From: a virus
DNA length: 64,000 bases
IMG/VR virus record: IMGVR_UViG_3300032304_003098
Coordinates: 1 to 64,000 of that record
Direction: 5' to 3' (one strand)
In this document: piece after piece, positions 11,897 to 20,736 of the stretch
Layout of the letters: each line of letters begins with the position of its first letter
Numbering within the stretch: the first letter of the stretch is position 1
Position numbers and translations under genes: made by a program
Notes under the pieces: generated by a model
The model's input: only the letters and a program-made list of their open reading frames with translations
The model's database searches: none
What the model was told of the DNA's origin: nothing

Positions 11897-14800
11897 ATGG
11901 CTAAGAAAATCAAACTCGATTTATCACAATTCAAAGCTTCTGGTGTGTACACGCTGGAATTTGATGCCTCTGAAAACATCATCTTAACTTCACAAACGAT
12001 TCGTTTGGTGGTTGGTTTTTCAAATAAAGGTCCATTCAATGCTCCAGTTTATATCCCAGATGTAACAACCGCTGTTGCTATTTTTGGTGACATCGATAAA
12101 AATCTCGAATCACAAGGCTCATATTTCCAAAGATCAATTTTAACATGTCTTGCAACTGGGCCAGTTTTTGCCTTGAATTTGCTTCGTCTGAATAACGATG
12201 TTGATTCCCCAACAGCAGATAAAGTAGACTATTTTGGTTTTTCCGTCGCTACAGATGAACCTAACGGGGTTTTAACCTCTCGTCTATATTCTTCTTTCTA
12301 CAACAAAGAAAGATTTTGGTTTGCCGATGTGGATTATTTTCTGGCTACCATGTCGGTAGTAGACCAAGGTAGAATTTTTAATTTGGTGAATCTTGGACAG
12401 CAATCTATGTCTGTTATTGTTAGAAAATCCACCGATGCAACTCCTCCTTTGCAGGGATATGACGTATTTGCTATCGATTGGTATGGTGCCAATAACGTGC
12501 CCAGTTATGTTCACCCTTATGATTATATTTCAGATTGGTTTATTGATGTAATTGCTGTTTCTGGGAATTGGACTGACTATCAGGCTTTATCAGAAGATCC
12601 AGAATGGTCGGCTTTCTTTACCCCCAATGGATTCATCAAAAGTCAAATTAACAATTTCTTGAGTCAACAAAACGTAAACATTATTACGCAAGTAACTGGG
12701 TGTTTAATTCTAGATTTTGTAGATCTGAATGGGAACAATCAGTTTATTCAAACGCTGGTTAACAACAATACACCATCAACTGGTCTTTTCTGTGCTGTAG
12801 ACGCCGAAGGATTGGAATATCTTTGTCAAAATAGATTTAAAGTTGATTTGGTCGGTAACTTCTTAATTGACGAATTAACTGCAGATAGAGATCTAGCAGA
12901 TCCCAAGTTAAATTTCTTGAGTTATGATCAACAGTTAATTCAGGATTATCTTTACACCCAAAATTCAATTGGAATAACTGGCGGAGGAGTTACTGGAGGA
13001 ACAGCAGGTGTTGACTACACTTCATTGAACGTTGGAACATTATTTAACCTAGGTGGGGCAACTGGACCTACTGCTGGTGTACCAGCATCCGCTCTAGAAC
13101 CTTACGACCCAAGTTTAACATTTGGTGGTCTTCATTATCTTCGTACCAATTCTGGTGTTACTGGTGGTGCAGTAGTTAACGTGTGGGTTGGGGCAAGCGG
13201 GGGATCTGGGTACACTACAGCTCCTACAGTTACTTTTGTTAATCCGGCAGGAGCAACGGGAGCTTCAGCTTATGCTGTGATAAGCAGCGGGGGAAGTGTA
13301 ACTTCAATTGTTTTGACAAGCGGTGGATCAGGATATACTACTGCTCCTACAATTAGTCTAACTGGCGGTGGAGGTTCAGGAGCACAGGCTTACGCCGAAA
13401 TTTTAACCCAGCCTTCTTTAACCTCAGCAGAAAAATTAAGATTAAAAGATTTTGTTACGCCCACTCCTTCATACACCCCATTCATTCTTGGTACAGTTAC
13501 AATTCCTGCAGCAGCTACTGGAAACGTTATTAATCAATTTACAACAGGTGACTTGGTCAAACTCAAAATAACAGGGGTCAGGGAAATTTCAGGTAATTTA
13601 ACCATAACTTTCACACATCCACTAGATACTCCTGTTTATGCTTCCCAAGGAATTCAGGTTAGTCCTACTTCCTTTACAATGGGAACAACCTCTGGAACAG
13701 TTTCTGAATTTTATCAGCAGTTCGGGGCTTCAGATTATCTAGATATTGTAAGTGTGGCATCGATTACCGGTGGCACAGCTTCTAACTCACTAACAGGTCA
13801 GCTTACAACCAGTTTGTATCAAAATATCCTTTATCGTGAAATCGAGGATGGGGATATTATATGGTTAAATGAAACTGGAACAAATCTTTACTATGTGGAC
13901 ACACAATTGACGGTAGATAGAGACCAATTCAATGTTTCGTATGTCAGAGCATTTGATAATGTGGCTAGACAAAATCCAGACAATTTAGTAAACTATCCTG
14001 CCTTTGGAACAGTTTATGCTTTTGATAATATCGGTTTGCCAGTCTCTGCAGGAAAAACTGATATTATATCTAACGTAGCCTCAATCAATCAATTTCTGGA
14101 CGTGTTGACGAAAATAGATTCAACCAGTTTCACCTTTGTGCCCGACCAAGTGAATAATAAAATAATTTCAGTTGGCGATTATCTAGTTTCAACTGATTTA
14201 GAATTGTGTGAAACTGTAGGTGCAAACAGACAATCAAGATTGACCAAAGTAACCTCTGTGGCCCAAACCACGACTGCAGGTGTAGTAAGAGTAACATGTG
14301 CTAGACCTATATTTTATTATGCTGGATCACCAATTCAAGTCCAAAAGTTCAAATCAATTCCACAATTTACTAGATCGTTCGATTTTATCTACCTGAACGG
14401 CTACACCATGAGAGACGCCCAAAGGCCAAATGGGACTGATTTGAGGGTAGATGAAATTCTAAATGTTCTTTATGACACAAATTTGGCTGCAACTTTGGCA
14501 ACCAAAGATGTTATTTCTTTCCGTTACATTGTGGATACGTTTAGCGGTACAATTCAGCCAAATTCTAAGTACCAGCTTTCGAAATTGGCCATGATGAGGC
14601 AAAAAGCTTTGGCTTTTATCAATGCTCCTTCGATGGCTCAGTTCAGAGCTAGTACAGACCCTAGATTTACCAACGCACCTACTCCATCTGATCCATTCCC
14701 TTCTCTGGAAGCACAGTACATAGCTGAAGGGGGTAACTTATCTTTGAATCCTTCCTATACTTTTAGCCTTCCTACACAAGATTTAGGAGCTTCATTCGCT

Positions 14801-15439
14801 GGATATTTCACCCCTTACATTACCATCAGGGAAAATAACAGAAACACAAACGTACCTCCCGCAGCTTACGTTTCAAACAATTTTGTTAGAAAATTTGCCA
14901 ACGGGGAACCCTACAACATTATTGCAGGTCAGAAAAGAGGTACCATCTCAGGAGGCAATATTGTAGGTTTAGAGTATGACTTCACTGATGAAGATCGTGG
15001 TTGGTTAGAACCATTCGGGTTGAACCCTATTATTAAGAAGAGGGGATTTGGCGTTGTTATCTTTGGCAACCAAACTGCTTATCAAACTGTGAATTCTGCG
15101 TTTAGTTTGCTTCACGTGAGAGATCTTCTTATAAGTCTTGAGAACGATGTGGAAGAAATTTTGGCTAATTACCTGTTTGATTTCAACGAAGATTCCATTC
15201 GCTTAGAAATCAAAACTCTGGTTGATACTTATTTGGATGGTGTCAGAGCAGGAGGAGGAATTTATGCCTACCAAGTTATCATGGATGCATCTAACAATCC
15301 TCCTTCGGTCATCGACATGAATATGGGAATCATTGATGTTATCATAGAGCCTGCTCGAGGCATACAGAAGTTTATCAATCGAATCACTGTAACCCGCACA
15401 GGAGGCATCGCTTCAGGAGGTTTCATCAATTTCGTATAA
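11897..15439 (+). CDS. 18: tail sheath protein (gp18), enlarged
   Basis: The contractile sheath subunit, which surrounds the tube and contracts on infection. The N-terminus (VVGFSNKGPFNAPVYI) and C-terminus (RGFGVVIFGNQTAY, VRDLLISLENDVEEIL, then IDVIIEPARGIQKFINRITVT) match conserved sheath ends. At 1180 aa it is nearly twice T4 gp18 (659 aa). The extra length is central and includes two Gly-rich GGSGYTTAP repeats (about residues 430-510), likely surface-exposed domains on the sheath exterior. It is followed by two tube genes, the usual T4 order. Confidence 0.93.
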   Translation: MAKKIKLDLSQFKASGVYTLEFDASENIILTSQTIRLVVGFSNKGPFNAPVYIPDVTTAVAIFGDIDKNLESQGSYFQRSILTCLATGPVFALNLLRLNNDVDSPTADKVDYFGFSVATDEPNGVLTSRLYSSFYNKERFWFADVDYFLATMSVVDQGRIFNLVNLGQQSMSVIVRKSTDATPPLQGYDVFAIDWYGANNVPSYVHPYDYISDWFIDVIAVSGNWTDYQALSEDPEWSAFFTPNGFIKSQINNFLSQQNVNIITQVTGCLILDFVDLNGNNQFIQTLVNNNTPSTGLFCAVDAEGLEYLCQNRFKVDLVGNFLIDELTADRDLADPKLNFLSYDQQLIQDYLYTQNSIGITGGGVTGGTAGVDYTSLNVGTLFNLGGATGPTAGVPASALEPYDPSLTFGGLHYLRTNSGVTGGAVVNVWVGASGGSGYTTAPTVTFVNPAGATGASAYAVISSGGSVTSIVLTSGGSGYTTAPTISLTGGGGSGAQAYAEILTQPSLTSAEKLRLKDFVTPTPSYTPFILGTVTIPAAATGNVINQFTTGDLVKLKITGVREISGNLTITFTHPLDTPVYASQGIQVSPTSFTMGTTSGTVSEFYQQFGASDYLDIVSVASITGGTASNSLTGQLTTSLYQNILYREIEDGDIIWLNETGTNLYYVDTQLTVDRDQFNVSYVRAFDNVARQNPDNLVNYPAFGTVYAFDNIGLPVSAGKTDIISNVASINQFLDVLTKIDSTSFTFVPDQVNNKIISVGDYLVSTDLELCETVGANRQSRLTKVTSVAQTTTAGVVRVTCARPIFYYAGSPIQVQKFKSIPQFTRSFDFIYLNGYTMRDAQRPNGTDLRVDEILNVLYDTNLAATLATKDVISFRYIVDTFSGTIQPNSKYQLSKLAMMRQKALAFINAPSMAQFRASTDPRFTNAPTPSDPFPSLEAQYIAEGGNLSLNPSYTFSLPTQDLGASFAGYFTPYITIRENNRNTNVPPAAYVSNNFVRKFANGEPYNIIAGQKRGTISGGNIVGLEYDFTDEDRGWLEPFGLNPIIKKRGFGVVIFGNQTAYQTVNSAFSLLHVRDLLISLENDVEEILANYLFDFNEDSIRLEIKTLVDTYLDGVRAGGGIYAYQVIMDASNNPPSVIDMNMGIIDVIIEPARGIQKFINRITVTRTGGIASGGFINFV
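13190..13400 (+). repeat. duplicated Gly-rich segment in sheath insertion
   Basis: Two copies of a segment encoding G-S-G-Y-T-T-A-P-T-(V/I)-(T/S) followed by Ala/Gly-rich strands lie in the sheath's extra central region. Such repeats are common in phage fibre and decoration domains. Confidence 0.6.
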
Positions 15440-15492: not shown

Positions 15493-16047
15493 ATGGCCGG
15501 TTTACCACACTACCAAAATTCGTTATATTCGATCAATAAATACGAACCCGTTTATCTTAACCAATTTGAGGTAACTGTGATTCCACCCGCTGCTGTCCAA
15601 GGTGGTCAAATTTTGTTACAGCAGGTTGTAAATGTAAACGGCTTAGATGTGGATAAAAACCCATCTTTCGTGTTCCAGAAATATAAGTTTGCCAAAAGAA
15701 ACTATGCAGGAGGTAAGCCGGATAAAACCTCTTTAGATTTGAGTGTAAAATTCACAGTGAATTTAAACGATGATAATTCTATGTACTCGTTTAAAACTCT
15801 TAGACAATGGTCAGATCTGATTTATAACCCTTTGACCGGAGCTATGGGCATTAAAACTGACTACACTGGAACGATTATTATATCTATTTTCAACAAAAAT
15901 GGAGACGTCTTCCGAAGAATCACGTGTCGTGACTGTTTCCCCATGAAAGCTATTGATCCTATGGAGTTAGACTATATAAACGGAACTACTTTGTATGAAA
16001 TCACCATGACATGGGCGGTAGATTATTGGGAAGACCTTTTCACCTAA
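15493..16047 (+). CDS. 19: tail tube protein (gp19), copy 1
   Basis: A 184-aa tube subunit of the T4 gp19 fold, which stacks as hexamers inside the sheath. Conserved features are the LPHYQNSLYSINKYEPVY opening, KFAKRNYAGG mid-protein, and LRQWSDLIYNPLTGAMG with the following RRITCRDCFP region. The gene directly follows the sheath. It is paralogous to the next gene over the whole length. Confidence 0.9.
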   Translation: MAGLPHYQNSLYSINKYEPVYLNQFEVTVIPPAAVQGGQILLQQVVNVNGLDVDKNPSFVFQKYKFAKRNYAGGKPDKTSLDLSVKFTVNLNDDNSMYSFKTLRQWSDLIYNPLTGAMGIKTDYTGTIIISIFNKNGDVFRRITCRDCFPMKAIDPMELDYINGTTLYEITMTWAVDYWEDLFT

Positions 16048-16062
16048 AAAATTAAAAAATAA

Positions 16063-16644
16063 ATGGCAGGTTTACCTCATTTCAATAATTCACTCGCAGC
16101 TCGCAACAATTACGAGCCAGTTTTTCTGAACCAGTTTGAAGTTTTAATTACTCCCCCAGCGGGTGTGACTTTAGCAAATGTGAGATTCAATGGAGAATCT
16201 ATCATGACCCAGCAGGTCAAAAGCGTGACCGGATCTTTGGCTGTAGACATTCAACCTTCGGCCCCGGTGACACAATATTACAAATTTGCAGAAAGAAGAT
16301 ATGCAGGGGGTGAACCTTCAACTTCGGATGTGCAATTTTCAATTGCTTTCGAGGTAAATCTAAATCAAAACAATTCTATGACCATTTTCAAAATTTTGCG
16401 TCAATGGTCAGATTTGATTTATAATCCTCTCACGGGTGCTATGGGTCTGAAAAGAGATTACGTGGGTCAAATCGTGGTTTCTATTTTTAACAAGCAAGGT
16501 GATGTTTTCCGTAGAATAACTTTAAATAACTGTTTTTTGATTGAGCCATTGACAAGTATGGCATTAAGTTATGACACTGGTGATTCCATTTATGTTCTAG
16601 ATACAACTTGGAAATCTGATTACTGGCAGGACCAGTTCCTATAA
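16063..16644 (+). CDS. 19: tail tube protein (gp19), copy 2
   Basis: A 193-aa paralog of the preceding tube protein. The two share LRQWSDLIYNPLTGAMG, the RRYAGG/RNYAGG turn and the D-Y-W-(E/Q)-D end. Copy 2 has about nine extra residues near 35-50. T4 has one tube gene. The second could be a tube-initiator or terminator, or a minor ring, or the two may alternate. A terminator hairpin overlaps its stop codon. Confidence 0.87.
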   Translation: MAGLPHFNNSLAARNNYEPVFLNQFEVLITPPAGVTLANVRFNGESIMTQQVKSVTGSLAVDIQPSAPVTQYYKFAERRYAGGEPSTSDVQFSIAFEVNLNQNNSMTIFKILRQWSDLIYNPLTGAMGLKRDYVGQIVVSIFNKQGDVFRRITLNNCFLIEPLTSMALSYDTGDSIYVLDTTWKSDYWQDQFL

Positions 16645-16709: not shown

Positions 16710-17804
16710 ATGGATCCTAATAATTTGTCCCCTGAAAAAATTTTACAAGAAAAAGAAAAACTAGGCGGAATATCTTTCGACGATAGAATTGCAGATCTAA
16801 ATCCAATAAACCCTTTGGAGGAAAGAGCACAAAAGGAGGCGGAAGCTCTAGCCGAGCAAGCACGAGGAAAATCCCAAATTGTGGCTGAAACAAAATTGGC
16901 ACAACAGCTTAAATCTGACCAAGATCAAAATTCTAATTTTGAAAATTCAACACAGAAACAGTTTAGTCCATCTGATTTAGGGTGGAAAAATTTACCCCCT
17001 GTCCTTTTGCCCTCTGGTGGTTTATTTTACCCAGAGGGGGTCCAAATTGCTATCCGCCCTGCTGAGGTAAAAGAGATTCGCCACTTTTCAACGATCGATG
17101 AAACAGATATGTTGGACATAGATTCTAAACTAAATTTAATTTTAGAAAGATGTTGTGTCATTAAATTCCCTCAGCATGGAGTTGTTTCTTACAAGGAAAT
17201 CAAACAAGAGGACCGTTTTTTTATTATCATGACAATTCGGGATTTAACTTTCGTGAGGGGAGAAAACATGGTTGTCTTGAAACCACAAACTGGATGTGAA
17301 ACTTCATCTTGCCCCTTCGAACATGGCATCGAATTGAGAACTGGGGTTTTGTCTAAATATACTATTGACGATAAACTGATGTCCTATTATTCTAAAACGG
17401 AAAGAAAGTTTGTTTTACATATTCAAAAGTTATCCAAGACTGTAAAAATGACTGTGCCATCGATTGGAGTTGTAGAAGCAATTTCTAATTACGCCAGAAC
17501 CAGGATTAGACAGGGTAAAGACGTGGATGAAAGTTTCATCAAAATAGCTCCTTATTTGTATGATGATTGGAGATCTTTGACTGAAAACAAATTAGCAGAA
17601 TTGGAAGAGGCCTCAAATTCTTGGTCCAAGGAAGAATTTTCACTTTTTTTCCAAATCACGGATCTTCTAAAAATTGGAACAAAACTAGAGGTGAGTGTAC
17701 CTTGCCCAAAATGCGGTGCCCAGGAGGTCACCGCACCGATTTACTTTCCCGAAGGGATCAGATCTCTTTTCGTTATTTCAGATATCTTTGGACAACTTCT
17801 TTGA
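16710..17804 (+). CDS. gp26-like baseplate/tail assembly chaperone (0-frame product)
   Basis: A 364-aa protein between tube and tape-measure-like genes. The core LPSGGLFYPEG, then IAIRPAEVKEIRHFS and LNLILERCC resemble the T4_baseplate (gp26-like) family. Cys pairs occur at CETSSC and CPKC. The gene slot between tube and tape measure is where most tailed phages encode assembly chaperones made as a short form plus a frameshifted long form. This ORF ends CTT-CTT-TGA, and a +1 shift there enters an open 57-codon extension (see 17803). The N-terminal 85 residues are charged and probably flexible. Confidence 0.7.
   Translation: MDPNNLSPEKILQEKEKLGGISFDDRIADLNPINPLEERAQKEAEALAEQARGKSQIVAETKLAQQLKSDQDQNSNFENSTQKQFSPSDLGWKNLPPVLLPSGGLFYPEGVQIAIRPAEVKEIRHFSTIDETDMLDIDSKLNLILERCCVIKFPQHGVVSYKEIKQEDRFFIIMTIRDLTFVRGENMVVLKPQTGCETSSCPFEHGIELRTGVLSKYTIDDKLMSYYSKTERKFVLHIQKLSKTVKMTVPSIGVVEAISNYARTRIRQGKDVDESFIKIAPYLYDDWRSLTENKLAELEEASNSWSKEEFSLFFQITDLLKIGTKLEVSVPCPKCGAQEVTAPIYFPEGIRSLFVISDIFGQLL
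17796..17804 (+). other. candidate +1 programmed frameshift site CTT-CTT-TGA
   Basis: The final sense codon CTT followed by TGA reproduces the core of the release-factor-2 autoregulatory frameshift (CUU-UGA): the P-site Leu tRNA slips one base to UUU while the poor stop TGA waits. The next codon in the +1 frame is GAT, and the frame is open to 17976. No Shine-Dalgarno-like booster is seen just upstream, unlike E. coli prfB, but this genome does not use such sequences for initiation either. Confidence 0.6.
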
Positions 17805-17976
17805 TTTAAAATTTAGATTGTGGTTCGAACACAAGCTGGACCCAGATTGGGTAGAAAAAATTCCTTATTATGAATATCAGATTTGGCTTCAAAAGTTAAA
17901 TGTTGAAATAGAAAAAGAAAACAGAGAAGCACAAGAAAACTCTGGTCAGTCCGAAGTTTTCAATTTTTCTAAGTAA
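17803..17976 (+). CDS. +1 frameshift extension of the gp26-like chaperone
   Basis: 57 codons from GAT at 17803 to TAA at 17974-17976. The peptide begins DLKFRLWFEHKLDPDWVEK and continues with a charged helix (YEYQIWLQKLNVEIEKE). It is clearly coding-like, but it has no ATG, and the only in-frame GTG (17695) lies deep inside the upstream gene. The simplest expression route is +1 frameshifting, giving a long form of about 421 aa analogous to lambda gpGT. The T domain of gpGT binds the tape measure protein, and a tape-measure-like gene follows 40 bases later. Confidence 0.6.
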   Translation, partial: DLKFRLWFEHKLDPDWVEKIPYYEYQIWLQKLNVEIEKENREAQENSGQSEVFNFSK

Positions 17977-18015: not shown

Positions 18016-19455
18016 ATGGCACAGGATTCTGCAACAATTTTAAAAGAACTATCTGTTCTGTCCAGTAATATGGATGCCTTAGTGCGAGAGTTAAAGGAAC
18101 AAAATAAAACAACCGCAGAGAATACAAAAGGAATCAATGATTTGGTAACCCAGATTAAAGAAAACCCAATTTCTAAAACCCAAAAGCCAGTTGACCAAAA
18201 GGAAAGTCCAACAAAATTATTTGAAAATTTAGTTTCTTCCTTTTCGAAAGAAATTTCCAAGTCTAATGAGATTTTGCAAAAAAATTTAGACAAACAGATG
18301 GGAAGTTCGTTAAAGGATTTAGCGAAAAATGTATTTAAACCAGCGGAGGTAAAGCCCAATCCTAATCTTGATTTTTTTAAGGCTTTAGGTTTAGACAAGT
18401 TACCCCAGCTGAAAGACGGTGGACAAATTCAAAAAGACGGAGTGGCTATTGTAGGAGAAAAAGGACCAGAGCTTGTAGATTTAAAAAAGGATCAGCGTGT
18501 AATTTCCAACCAGGATTTTCTTCTGCAAGAAGAATTGAAAGAAATGGCGGTGAAGGAAGCAAAGCAGAATCAGGCTCAGCAAAACACCTCTGACCTGGTA
18601 ACCGGATCACAAAATTTGACAGATAGTGTAACCAATTCATTTGGGGCTAAGGTTTCTAAGAAAGAAATAGATGGATATCGTGATAGAATGCTAAGAGAAG
18701 ATGCAGATTATTACGAAGAATATCCAGACGAACTTGAAAGTGACATAAAATCCTTCATAGAAAACTATAGAGAACCCTACGATTTTTCAAAGTTTTTAAA
18801 CTCTAAACTAGAAAATCAAGAACAGCTAAAATCTATAAAAGAACAGCCAGTAGCAAACCCAGCGGAGGAACTTTCACGAGGGGATAAAAGAAAGAAGGAT
18901 AGCGAAGAAAAAAAAGCTGGGAATGAAAAACTAGAAAGCGTTGTTACTCCCACTAAGCCTAAACTGTTAGAGTCTCTTAAATCTAAAGGAAAGGAATTTG
19001 GTTCTAACCTAAAGCAAAGCATTTCATCTAAAGTAGAATCAGCTAAACAAACATTAAGTGGAAAAATTCCACCAGATGGGTTGGAAACGTATGCTTCCGT
19101 GTCCCAACAAATGCAAAAACTTTCCAAGGATATGAGCGAATCAGTGGAAATGAAAAAAGAAACCTCAGCTTTAAAAAAGGCGGAAGGGGAAAAATCTAAA
19201 CCAAAATCTACACCAGCCCCTTCTCTACCCCAGCAGCAAGCTATTGAATCTGTTACCCCAAAAGTTGCAGAAACACAAGCCTCTCCTAGTAAAATCCAGG
19301 AAAATAAAGTAGAAAAAAAAGAAACTGCCGAAACTTTACCTCATCAGGAGATTAAAGAAATAAAAGCTCTTTTGGCAGGAATCTATAAAGCCTTATCTGG
19401 TCCATTAAGAATTGCAAATGACACTCCATTTAGACCGAATTCTAATATCATATAA
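18016..19455 (+). CDS. tape-measure-like tail protein
   Basis: A 479-aa, highly charged helical protein. DGGQIQKDGVAIVGEKGPELV (about residues 134-154) contains the G-E-x-G-P-E motif that marks many tape measure proteins. The C-terminal 30 residues (IKALLAGIYKALSG) also look like a tape measure end. The middle is Lys/Glu/Ser-rich low complexity (residues 270-440). It could set tail length or be a companion of a longer tape measure outside the window; at 479 aa it is shorter than T4 gp29 (590). Its position after the frameshifting chaperone supports the call. Confidence 0.55.
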   Translation: MAQDSATILKELSVLSSNMDALVRELKEQNKTTAENTKGINDLVTQIKENPISKTQKPVDQKESPTKLFENLVSSFSKEISKSNEILQKNLDKQMGSSLKDLAKNVFKPAEVKPNPNLDFFKALGLDKLPQLKDGGQIQKDGVAIVGEKGPELVDLKKDQRVISNQDFLLQEELKEMAVKEAKQNQAQQNTSDLVTGSQNLTDSVTNSFGAKVSKKEIDGYRDRMLREDADYYEEYPDELESDIKSFIENYREPYDFSKFLNSKLENQEQLKSIKEQPVANPAEELSRGDKRKKDSEEKKAGNEKLESVVTPTKPKLLESLKSKGKEFGSNLKQSISSKVESAKQTLSGKIPPDGLETYASVSQQMQKLSKDMSESVEMKKETSALKKAEGEKSKPKSTPAPSLPQQQAIESVTPKVAETQASPSKIQENKVEKKETAETLPHQEIKEIKALLAGIYKALSGPLRIANDTPFRPNSNII

Positions 19456-19493: not shown

Positions 19494-19501
19494 TATATTT
19501 G
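19494..19501 (+). promoter_or_regulatory. possible host-type promoter box TATATTTG
   Basis: Matches the Bacteroidota -7 consensus TAnnTTTG, 24 bases before the deaminase ATG. A partial TTTC lies about 23 bases further upstream, where TTTG would be expected. Confidence 0.35.
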
Positions 19502-19525
19502 GACTTTTTAACCCCAAGATCTTTC

Positions 19526-20104
19526 ATGAGTTTAATTAAATTCAAGTTCAAAGAAATTCCTTCGTTCGATTTTTTTCAAAATTTGTCAGAGTATGATGAA
19601 TTTTCATGGGTTGCTAACCCTAAATCCGATTTTATTTATATCTTCAGTGAATTAGAAAATCTTACCGACGAAACTTTTTATACGGCCAAAGATATTAAAA
19701 CGGATCCTGTGTATTTGTCTATGGCAGAAACCTGGGCCACTAATTCATATTGCAGAAGAATGAAAGTAGGGAGTTTGATTGTCAAAAACAAATCCATTAT
19801 TTCGGATGGATACAATGGTTCTCCTACAGGATTCCCCAATCAATGTGAAGATGAAGATTTTGTTACTTTAAATTATGTGTTACATGCCGAAGCAAACGCA
19901 ATCACCAAACTTGCCAAAAGTACTCAGAGTTCCGAGGGTTCAACTATGTACGTGACGGTTTCTCCTTGTTTTGAGTGTTCAAAATTGATTATTCAATCGG
20001 GAATAAAAAGAATAGTTTTTGGCAAAGTCTATCGAAAACCTGAGCCCTTGTCTTTTTTATTACAGGCAGGAATTGAAATTGTAAAATTGGGAAAAAAAAT
20101 CTAA
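19526..20104 (+). CDS. dCMP deaminase-type zinc deaminase
   Basis: About 192 aa from the ATG at 19526; the in-frame TTG at 19499 overlaps the promoter-like box and is less likely. Zinc and catalytic motifs are HAEAN (120-124) and P-C-F-E-C (147-151), with CRRMKVGSLIVKN upstream, as in dCMP deaminases. It would convert dCMP to dUMP for dTTP synthesis. The first 60 residues are an extra domain not usual in the family. A sigma factor gene follows 11 bases later. Confidence 0.85.
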   Translation: MSLIKFKFKEIPSFDFFQNLSEYDEFSWVANPKSDFIYIFSELENLTDETFYTAKDIKTDPVYLSMAETWATNSYCRRMKVGSLIVKNKSIISDGYNGSPTGFPNQCEDEDFVTLNYVLHAEANAITKLAKSTQSSEGSTMYVTVSPCFECSKLIIQSGIKRIVFGKVYRKPEPLSFLLQAGIEIVKLGKKI

Positions 20105-20115
20105 GAAAATTAAGA

Positions 20116-20736
20116 ATGGCAAAAGAAAAAAACATCCAGGTATTAGCAGAGAATTTTATTCAGGGAAAAGATGACACATCGTTTAAATTTTTATTCGACC
20201 GGTTAAAGCCCGGAGTTTTAAACCACTGTTTCACAATTCTTAAAGATATGGAATTAGCAGAAGACGCTTTTTTAAATTCCATGGCCAAGGTCTGGCAAAA
20301 AATTGACCAATATGATGTAGAAAAGGGTAATTTTTCTACGTGGTGCTATAATATAGCCAAGAATGAATCATTACTTTTACAAAAAAGTAGAAAAAGATTA
20401 GTCAGTAAAACAACGGAAGAAATAGAACTAGATTCTACAAAAATGGATTCTGATTCTGTGGTTTATTCCGTGGAAGATGACCCGATCTGGAGTTTCCTGG
20501 CTGGAGGGTCAGATATAGACGAGGTTTATGAACAAGTGGTGGACGAAATAAGAGACCTTCCTGTTCTTTATCGTGACATCATGATCGACCGAGAGATCAA
20601 CGGCATGAAGTATAAAGACATAGCGGATAAATATGGAATAAAGAAAAGATCCATAGCTACAAGGATTAGAAGGGCGAGAACAAAAATTCGCAAGAAAATT
20701 GAGACCCTCACAAAAAAACCAATGAGAAATGATTGA
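20116..20736 (+). CDS. ECF-like sigma-70 family factor
   Basis: A 206-aa protein with the two-domain layout of ECF sigma factors. Region 2 (about residues 15-95) has LAEDAFLNSMAKVWQKI and GNFSTWCYNIAKNE. Region 4 (about 140-200) has LPVLYRDIMIDREINGMKYKD and a helix-turn-helix IADKYGIKKRSIATRIRRAR. It would direct host RNA polymerase to a phage promoter set. A separate gp55-like late factor is encoded at 28055, so this one probably serves another class, perhaps the TAnnTTTG-like sites (inference). Its last codons overlap the next gene. Confidence 0.82.
   Translation: MAKEKNIQVLAENFIQGKDDTSFKFLFDRLKPGVLNHCFTILKDMELAEDAFLNSMAKVWQKIDQYDVEKGNFSTWCYNIAKNESLLLQKSRKRLVSKTTEEIELDSTKMDSDSVVYSVEDDPIWSFLAGGSDIDEVYEQVVDEIRDLPVLYRDIMIDREINGMKYKDIADKYGIKKRSIATRIRRARTKIRKKIETLTKKPMRND

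Follow-up and report, generated by a model that had tools for sequence, protein, structure and literature searches.

A phage family related to T4, several members of which are known on Bacteroidota, appears to make its long tail-assembly chaperone by a +1 slip, probably at UUU-CCC behind a conserved hairpin, whereas most T4 relatives slip the other way. The locus lies in a 64,000-nucleotide stretch of DNA (hereafter the window), the first 64 kb of the 109,577-base virus record IMGVR_UViG_3300032304_003098. On the sequence comparisons presented below, we consider a gp26/gp51-type short/long chaperone pair, with a +1 slip most likely at UUU_CCC, to be the best explanation overall, and we hold it with reasonably good confidence. 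The genes and gene parts at the locus are as follows.

11897 to 15439, plus strand: tail sheath (phrog_34521, 1.6e-118).
15493 to 16047, plus strand: tail tube protein 1 (phrog_45, 3e-11).
16063 to 16644, plus strand: tail tube protein 2 (phrog_45, 2.6e-9).
16710 to 17804, plus strand: short form (TAC-N, gp26-like), 364 aa (open reading frame call; phrog_36717, 1.3e-19; phrog_150, baseplate hub, 2.5e-5).
17749 to 17973, plus strand: predicted +1 coding part of the long form, gp51-type C-terminal domain, 75 codons (dN/dS; match of the +1 tail to phrog_634, baseplate hub assembly catalyst, 1.2e-4).
18016 to 19455, plus strand: possible tape-measure gene, 479 aa (weak match to phrog_8892, 0.0027).

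The sheath and tube genes adjoin the chaperone locus directly upstream. The C-terminus of the short form consists of a CPKC zinc-ribbon-like segment and then a 0-frame run-on. The 3' end of the gene reads ...CAA-CTT-CTT-TGA, of which the first-pass annotation had described the final CTT-CTT-TGA. That annotation also proposed a coding +1 frame of 57 codons past the stop with no start of its own. The +1 frame is indeed open from 17695 to 17973, with 57 codons beyond the TGA and a TAA stop at 17974 to 17976; it contains no ATG, and GTG occurs at -107 and -86 and TTG at -14 and +16 relative to the TGA. The predicted long form has 421 aa. A Pfam search with the product of 18016 to 19455 gave no match. 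The sheath protein is very long (1180 aa), and matches to domains found in other virion proteins fall at residues ~405-514, suggestive of an inserted decoration domain. We also identified a sigma-70-type factor (regions 2 and 4) at 20116 to 20736, directly after a dCMP deaminase gene (19499 to 20104).

To compare the reading frames beyond the stop, we used distinct loci whose sequence extends at least 200 nt past it, and scored a frame as open when it continued for at least 40 codons. All window-like loci (43/43) and all more distant ones (57/57) have an open +1 frame (100/100 distinct IMG/VR relatives, from separate assemblies), whereas the -1 frame is open in only 0/43 and 4/57, in agreement with the original proposal of +1 rather than -1 access. 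The same arrangement in so many assemblies, and in the isolates PAU, PTm1, pT24 and MA9V, leaves a negligible chance that one extra base at 17802 was introduced by sequencing or assembly. In the 14 relatives examined first (78-96% identity across the matched region), TGA, CTT and the +1 frame are all retained. Across the wider set, the last codon and stop vary (CTT-TGA, TTT-TGA, TCT-TAA, CTT-TAA, TTA-TAA, ATT-TAA and CTA-TAA), and distant phages are more varied still. The alignment of homologues that had been suggested as a check therefore finds the +1 frame conserved but not CTT-TGA itself.

The +1 tail is also present in farther phages from isolates and metagenomes (PAU, PTm1, pT24, MA9V, MaF61, Lak and LR7565xx). 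Several of these phages have Bacteroidota hosts according to their records. The tail of Lak-B5 (L021, +1 after 3293) is open only when TAG is read as Gln (code 15), in agreement with the other Lak tail (L022). Cyanophage-type relatives have the -1 frame open in 78/78 loci and the +1 frame in none. The same kind of tail is open in -1 in the cyanophages P-SSM7 and S-SSM4 as well as in RL2RES, phiWae14, KVP40-like V09, GG32, Asswx_1 and Moby, mostly after U_UUU_UUC. Specifically, the heptamer TTTTTTC is invariant in 80/80 distinct cyanophage-type loci, and a GGAGG/GAGGG-like motif is found in 60/80, most often 10 nt upstream of the heptamer.

Selection was counted by parsimony on the protein tree of 104 distinct loci, which are related, so that their counts are not independent. 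For codons 1 to 39 after the stop, the +1 frame has 865 synonymous and 615 nonsynonymous changes (dN/dS ~0.16). Together with the open frame in 100/100 relatives and the phrog_634 match, this comparison shows that the +1 tail encodes protein and shares homology with the tail of gp51. The second part lies in a shifted frame that is conserved across relatives, as in gene pairs of the G/GT kind.

Full-length matches to PF12322 (T4_baseplate) are found in both T4 gp26 (8.8e-64) and T4 gp51 (3.9e-52), and both also match phrog_150. An additional C-terminal match to phrog_634 is present in gp51, and gp26 represents the same family minus that tail. Judged by these profiles, the two T4 proteins are paralogues: gp51 looks like gp26 plus a tail, and it is this tail that the window looks to carry in the +1 frame. 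The short form scores below the cut-off for PF12322 (0.011); the relative L020 matches phrog_150 (8.3e-6). A profile built from the 104 +1 tails finds the -1 cyanophage tails (4e-11 to 1e-7), and cross-matches between +1 and -1 tails span 4e-11 to 1e-5; T4 gp51 itself was not found by the +1-tail profile (0.22). Homology of the short form to gp26 and a gp51-type C-terminal addition in the long form are both found at the locus. The identity of the tail with the gp51 C-terminal domain, combined with the gp26/gp51 paralogy, argues for a short/long tail-assembly-chaperone (G/GT) pair, in line with the earlier suggestion.

In T4 the pair belongs to the same protein family, with gp26 as the short form and gp51, with its C-terminal extension, as the long form, but 26 and 51 are two separate genes, apart and on opposite (divergent) strands, and no frameshift is involved. 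Klebsiella phage Roth22 (L060, 440 to 1734) has two adjacent baseplate hub genes on the same strand, unlike the divergent pair of T4; these are probably tandem 51-like and 26-like paralogues. The -1 gp26/gp51 phages (cyanophages, KVP40-like phages, Ackermannviridae and other T4-like phages) have the same gene in the same position with a homologous tail in a shifted frame, but the shift is -1 and the frame is entered just before the stop.

T4 26 and 51 were reportedly identified as tail-assembly-chaperone genes by Vladimirov, Gautam and Davidson in 2022, and the placing of a T4-type gp26 in the role of lambda G by the first-pass annotation was right but not new. The 2022 work is cited by PMC12846349 and PMC10274946, and in the Adele paper it is the reference given for the poly-T slippery sites of T4-like phages. 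The T4 proteins are also listed as hub assembly chaperones (PMC3004832). Lambda G/GT and P2 E/E' have a short protein and a low-level frameshifted long protein encoded near tube and tape-measure genes (PMC5009743). The locus would resemble them in its short and frameshifted long protein, and it has adjacent tube genes and a possible tape-measure gene, but those systems use a -1 shift, and the likeness is one of arrangement, with no sequence homology claimed. In lambda, both the short and the long protein bind to the tape measure, and neither is part of the virion (PMC5009743). Given the lambda precedent, the listing of T4 gp26 and gp51, the sheath and tube neighbours and the weak tape-measure match, a chaperone role of the short/long pair is likely.

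Three elements around the stop bear on where reading moves into +1.

17745 to 17750, plus strand: UUU_CCC, the most likely slip site (conservation, synonymous suppression).
17770 to 17802, plus strand: +1-frame overlap segment SLFQISLDNFF, located ahead of the TGA yet conserved as protein (selection, profile).
17799 to 17804, plus strand: CTT-TGA, the slip site of the first-pass annotation, read here as a by-product (selection, profile comparison).

On the comparative evidence we place entry into +1 ~57 nt ahead of the TGA, with UUU_CCC as the most likely site. That reading in +1 starts upstream of the TGA is shown by selection, by a profile of the -1 family and by the tails of the relative L222 and the Lak phages. 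At codons -10 to -4 (counted from the stop), frame 0 has 7 synonymous and 76 nonsynonymous changes (dN/dS ~3.6), against 45 and 27 in +1 (~0.17); at codons -20 to -13, dN/dS in +1 is ~1.58. The +1 peptide SLFQISLxN[FY][FY] is nearly invariant before the TGA, while frame 0 drifts there. An independent profile, built from -1 fusions and gp51 only, scores upstream +1 entry above TGA entry in 104/104 loci, with means of 20.0 bits for UUU_CCC entry and 21.8-23.8 bits for entry at codon -12/-11 vs 12.5 bits at the TGA. Also, L222 and the Lak phages encode the overlap segment of the window after the stop (3e-30 and 8e-11).

These results do not sustain the RF2-like +1 shift at CTT-TGA that had originally been proposed. 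Although CUU_UGA is a classic +1 site (PMC5009743) and CTT is the last codon in 73/100 distinct loci, other relatives have TTA, CTA, ATT, TCT, GAA, AAG or GAG before the stop, and the segment that precedes the TGA is under purifying selection in +1 and none in frame 0 and forms part of the tail domain in L222 and the Lak phages. Instead of entry at CUU followed by the stop, as in RF2, the +1 frame is selected upstream of a site that is not conserved. We read CTT-TGA as a by-product, because the +1 codons TTC-TTT-GAT (F-F-D) spell CTT-TGA in frame 0; more generally, TTC-TTT-GA/AA in +1 yields CTT-TGA/TAA for free. Entry at CTT-TGA was rejected on selection, profile scores and the extent of the L222 and Lak tails, and we consider it very improbable. 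With prfB (RF2) the locus would share a forward shift by P-site re-pairing, and the window also has CTT-TGA, but this is not the entry point and the proposed site has no stop codon in the A site.

Several features point to UUU_CCC. Codon -19 is TTT in 102/104 loci, compared with 68% TTT among the F codons elsewhere in the gene, and the base after it is C in 103/104. Codon -18 is CCC in 90/104, and it has 2 synonymous changes where 31.2 would be expected. Synonymous changes are likewise suppressed at codons -15 and -13, which keeps Ser and Leu/Val/Ile in +1. Stops in +1 occur at codon -21 in 24/104 loci and at none of codons -20 to -1, the next longest stop-free run being 9 columns. The argI type of slippage at UUU followed by a pyrimidine has reportedly been described in E. 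coli by Schwartz and Curran; the proposed site has the same kind of forward-slip codon, but argI is an error site rather than a conserved programmed one. UUU, CUU and CCC were the most slippery forward codons among those tested at the RF2 site (PMC10274946). Some observations speak against UUU_CCC. CCC is missing from 14/104 loci, the aligned position in L050 and L300 does not carry UUU-C, and L026 is devoid of TTTC in frame. Nor is CCC an especially rare codon in the window phage (19% of Pro codons). A second UUU-C (TTT CAG) is found at 17776 to 17779, in the +1 frame of the long form.

Amino acids encoded in +1 at codons -17 to -12 are little conserved, so entry could be nearer codon -12. 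Alternatively, the shift may take place at CTN-TTC (codons -12/-11, 17766 to 17771), as +1 or -2, a place that matches U_UUU_UUC of the -1 phages. We retained this reading because the selection switches frame most sharply there and the profile score is slightly better than for UUU_CCC, with a -2-type join scoring best in 91/104 loci. However, any base (T, G, C or A) can stand third in CTN, which generally precludes both P-site re-pairing in +1 and a -2 slip of tRNA-Phe; the latter, at UUC (codon -11), was discarded on the free preceding base. A site further upstream is favoured by the synonymous suppression (codons -18, -15 and -13) and by the lack of any +1 stop from codon -20 onward, and the tail-domain similarity of L222 already covers the stretch that matches codons -13 on. 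We regard a shift at codons -12/-11 as unlikely.

Instead of being fused to the short form, the tail could be expressed as a gene of its own, from an internal start or by re-initiation. A homologue with its own start had been named in advance as evidence against a frameshift, and one such relative was found: in L222 (IMGVR_UViG_3300028610_002473) two stops interrupt the +1 overlap, and an ATG lies directly after the 0-frame stop. L222 is a natural split of both parts into separate genes. It does not overturn the case for fusion, because its copy reveals which stretch of residues makes up the tail domain. MaF61 has ATG-ATG 8 nt before its stop, and some -1 phages have TAATG or TGATG. Elsewhere, the stretch at +1 codons -20 to -1 is translated in +1 but has no ATG in 103/104 loci (one locus has it), no ATG, GTG or TTG is present at codons -20 to -6 in 86/104, and a stop at codon -21 closes the +1 frame upstream in 24. 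T4 gp51 and the -1 phages, moreover, join both parts in one chain. An internal start in the +1 frame was rejected on the missing start codons and the upstream +1 stops, and we give the separate-gene explanation as a whole a slim chance.

The preferred site, UUU_CCC, is preceded by a conserved structure.

17712 to 17735, plus strand: hairpin UGCGGUG-CCCAGGAGGU-CACCGCA, with its 3' base 9 nt ahead of UUU (folding, compensatory changes).
17723 to 17727, plus strand: GGAGG, Shine-Dalgarno-like, in the hairpin loop (GAGG kept in 69/98 loops).

The hairpin has a minimum free energy of -14.3 kcal/mol (z -2.25), and its 3' arm ends 9-10 nt ahead of UUU in 72/98 loci. Changes are suppressed in GAGGTC and its flanks (6 vs 31.4 at codon -25). 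The best-hairpin score is 15.4 at the site vs 7.7 elsewhere in the same genes, the hairpins having been picked by a best-fit search. Pair counts were made on two sets apart, because the MAFFT alignment of the region mixes two loop lengths. Two-sided pair changes were seen in 18 cells vs 6.6 +/- 2.3 in shuffles (0/500; 52 distinct rows), and slid versions of the hairpin pair less. Within the window-like set most pairs never vary, and there is one compensatory change, G-C to A-U. A few loci (L255, Lak) have no hairpin. Folding downstream of the slip site revealed no significant stimulatory structure (z 0.26). Overall, the comparison of loci shows selection on both the UUU-CCC bases and the hairpin.

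We propose that most ribosomes read 16710 to 17804 and yield the short form, whereas some would shift to +1 and yield the 421-aa long form with the gp51-type C-terminal domain. With UUU (17745 to 17747) in the P site and CCC in the A site, tRNA-Phe would re-pair with UUC one base downstream, skipping 17748. The predicted join in the window is ...APIYF-PKGSDLFSLFQISLDNFFDLK, and a junction peptide ...YFPKGSDLFSLF... would require entry at UUU_CCC. A published model holds that a structure upstream of the slip site can nudge ribosomes forward (PMC10274946). The hairpin may re-form behind the ribosome, around the mRNA exit, where it would probably discourage staying put or moving backward and so favour the forward shift. 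A broader reading, on which we are evenly divided, is that of a deeply conserved class of +1 frameshifting with no need of a stop codon or downstream structure, in which a GGAGG-loop hairpin re-forming at the mRNA exit drives the UUU_CCC slip; it would be the Bacteroidota-jumbo-phage counterpart of the T4-like -1 site, so that one pair is made three ways (+1, -1 and two genes).

T4 was long considered to lack the G/GT frameshift (PMC5009743). In the literature searched we did not find an earlier report of the +1 shift, its site or the upstream hairpin in these phages, which is not proof of absence. The analysis also corrects annotation: the Lak phages, PAU, PTm1, pT24 and MA9V carry the tail unannotated or as a truncated hypothetical gene. 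S-SSM4 and Asswx_1 likewise have a tail without any annotation. Sullivan et al. 2010 described cyanophage gp51 as ~20% of the usual length, with the first 200 or so residues missing (PMC3037559); it is short because only the frameshifted part was annotated. One annotated cyanophage gp51 (L053, NC_015290.1, 6242 to 6337) is a 31-codon fragment of the -1 tail.

The locus would add a third route to this chaperone pair and allows the +1, -1 and duplicated solutions to be compared in nature at a single gene. Should the hairpin drive the shift, the locus would also provide a simple and testable account of how a structure lying behind the ribosome may favour forward slippage.
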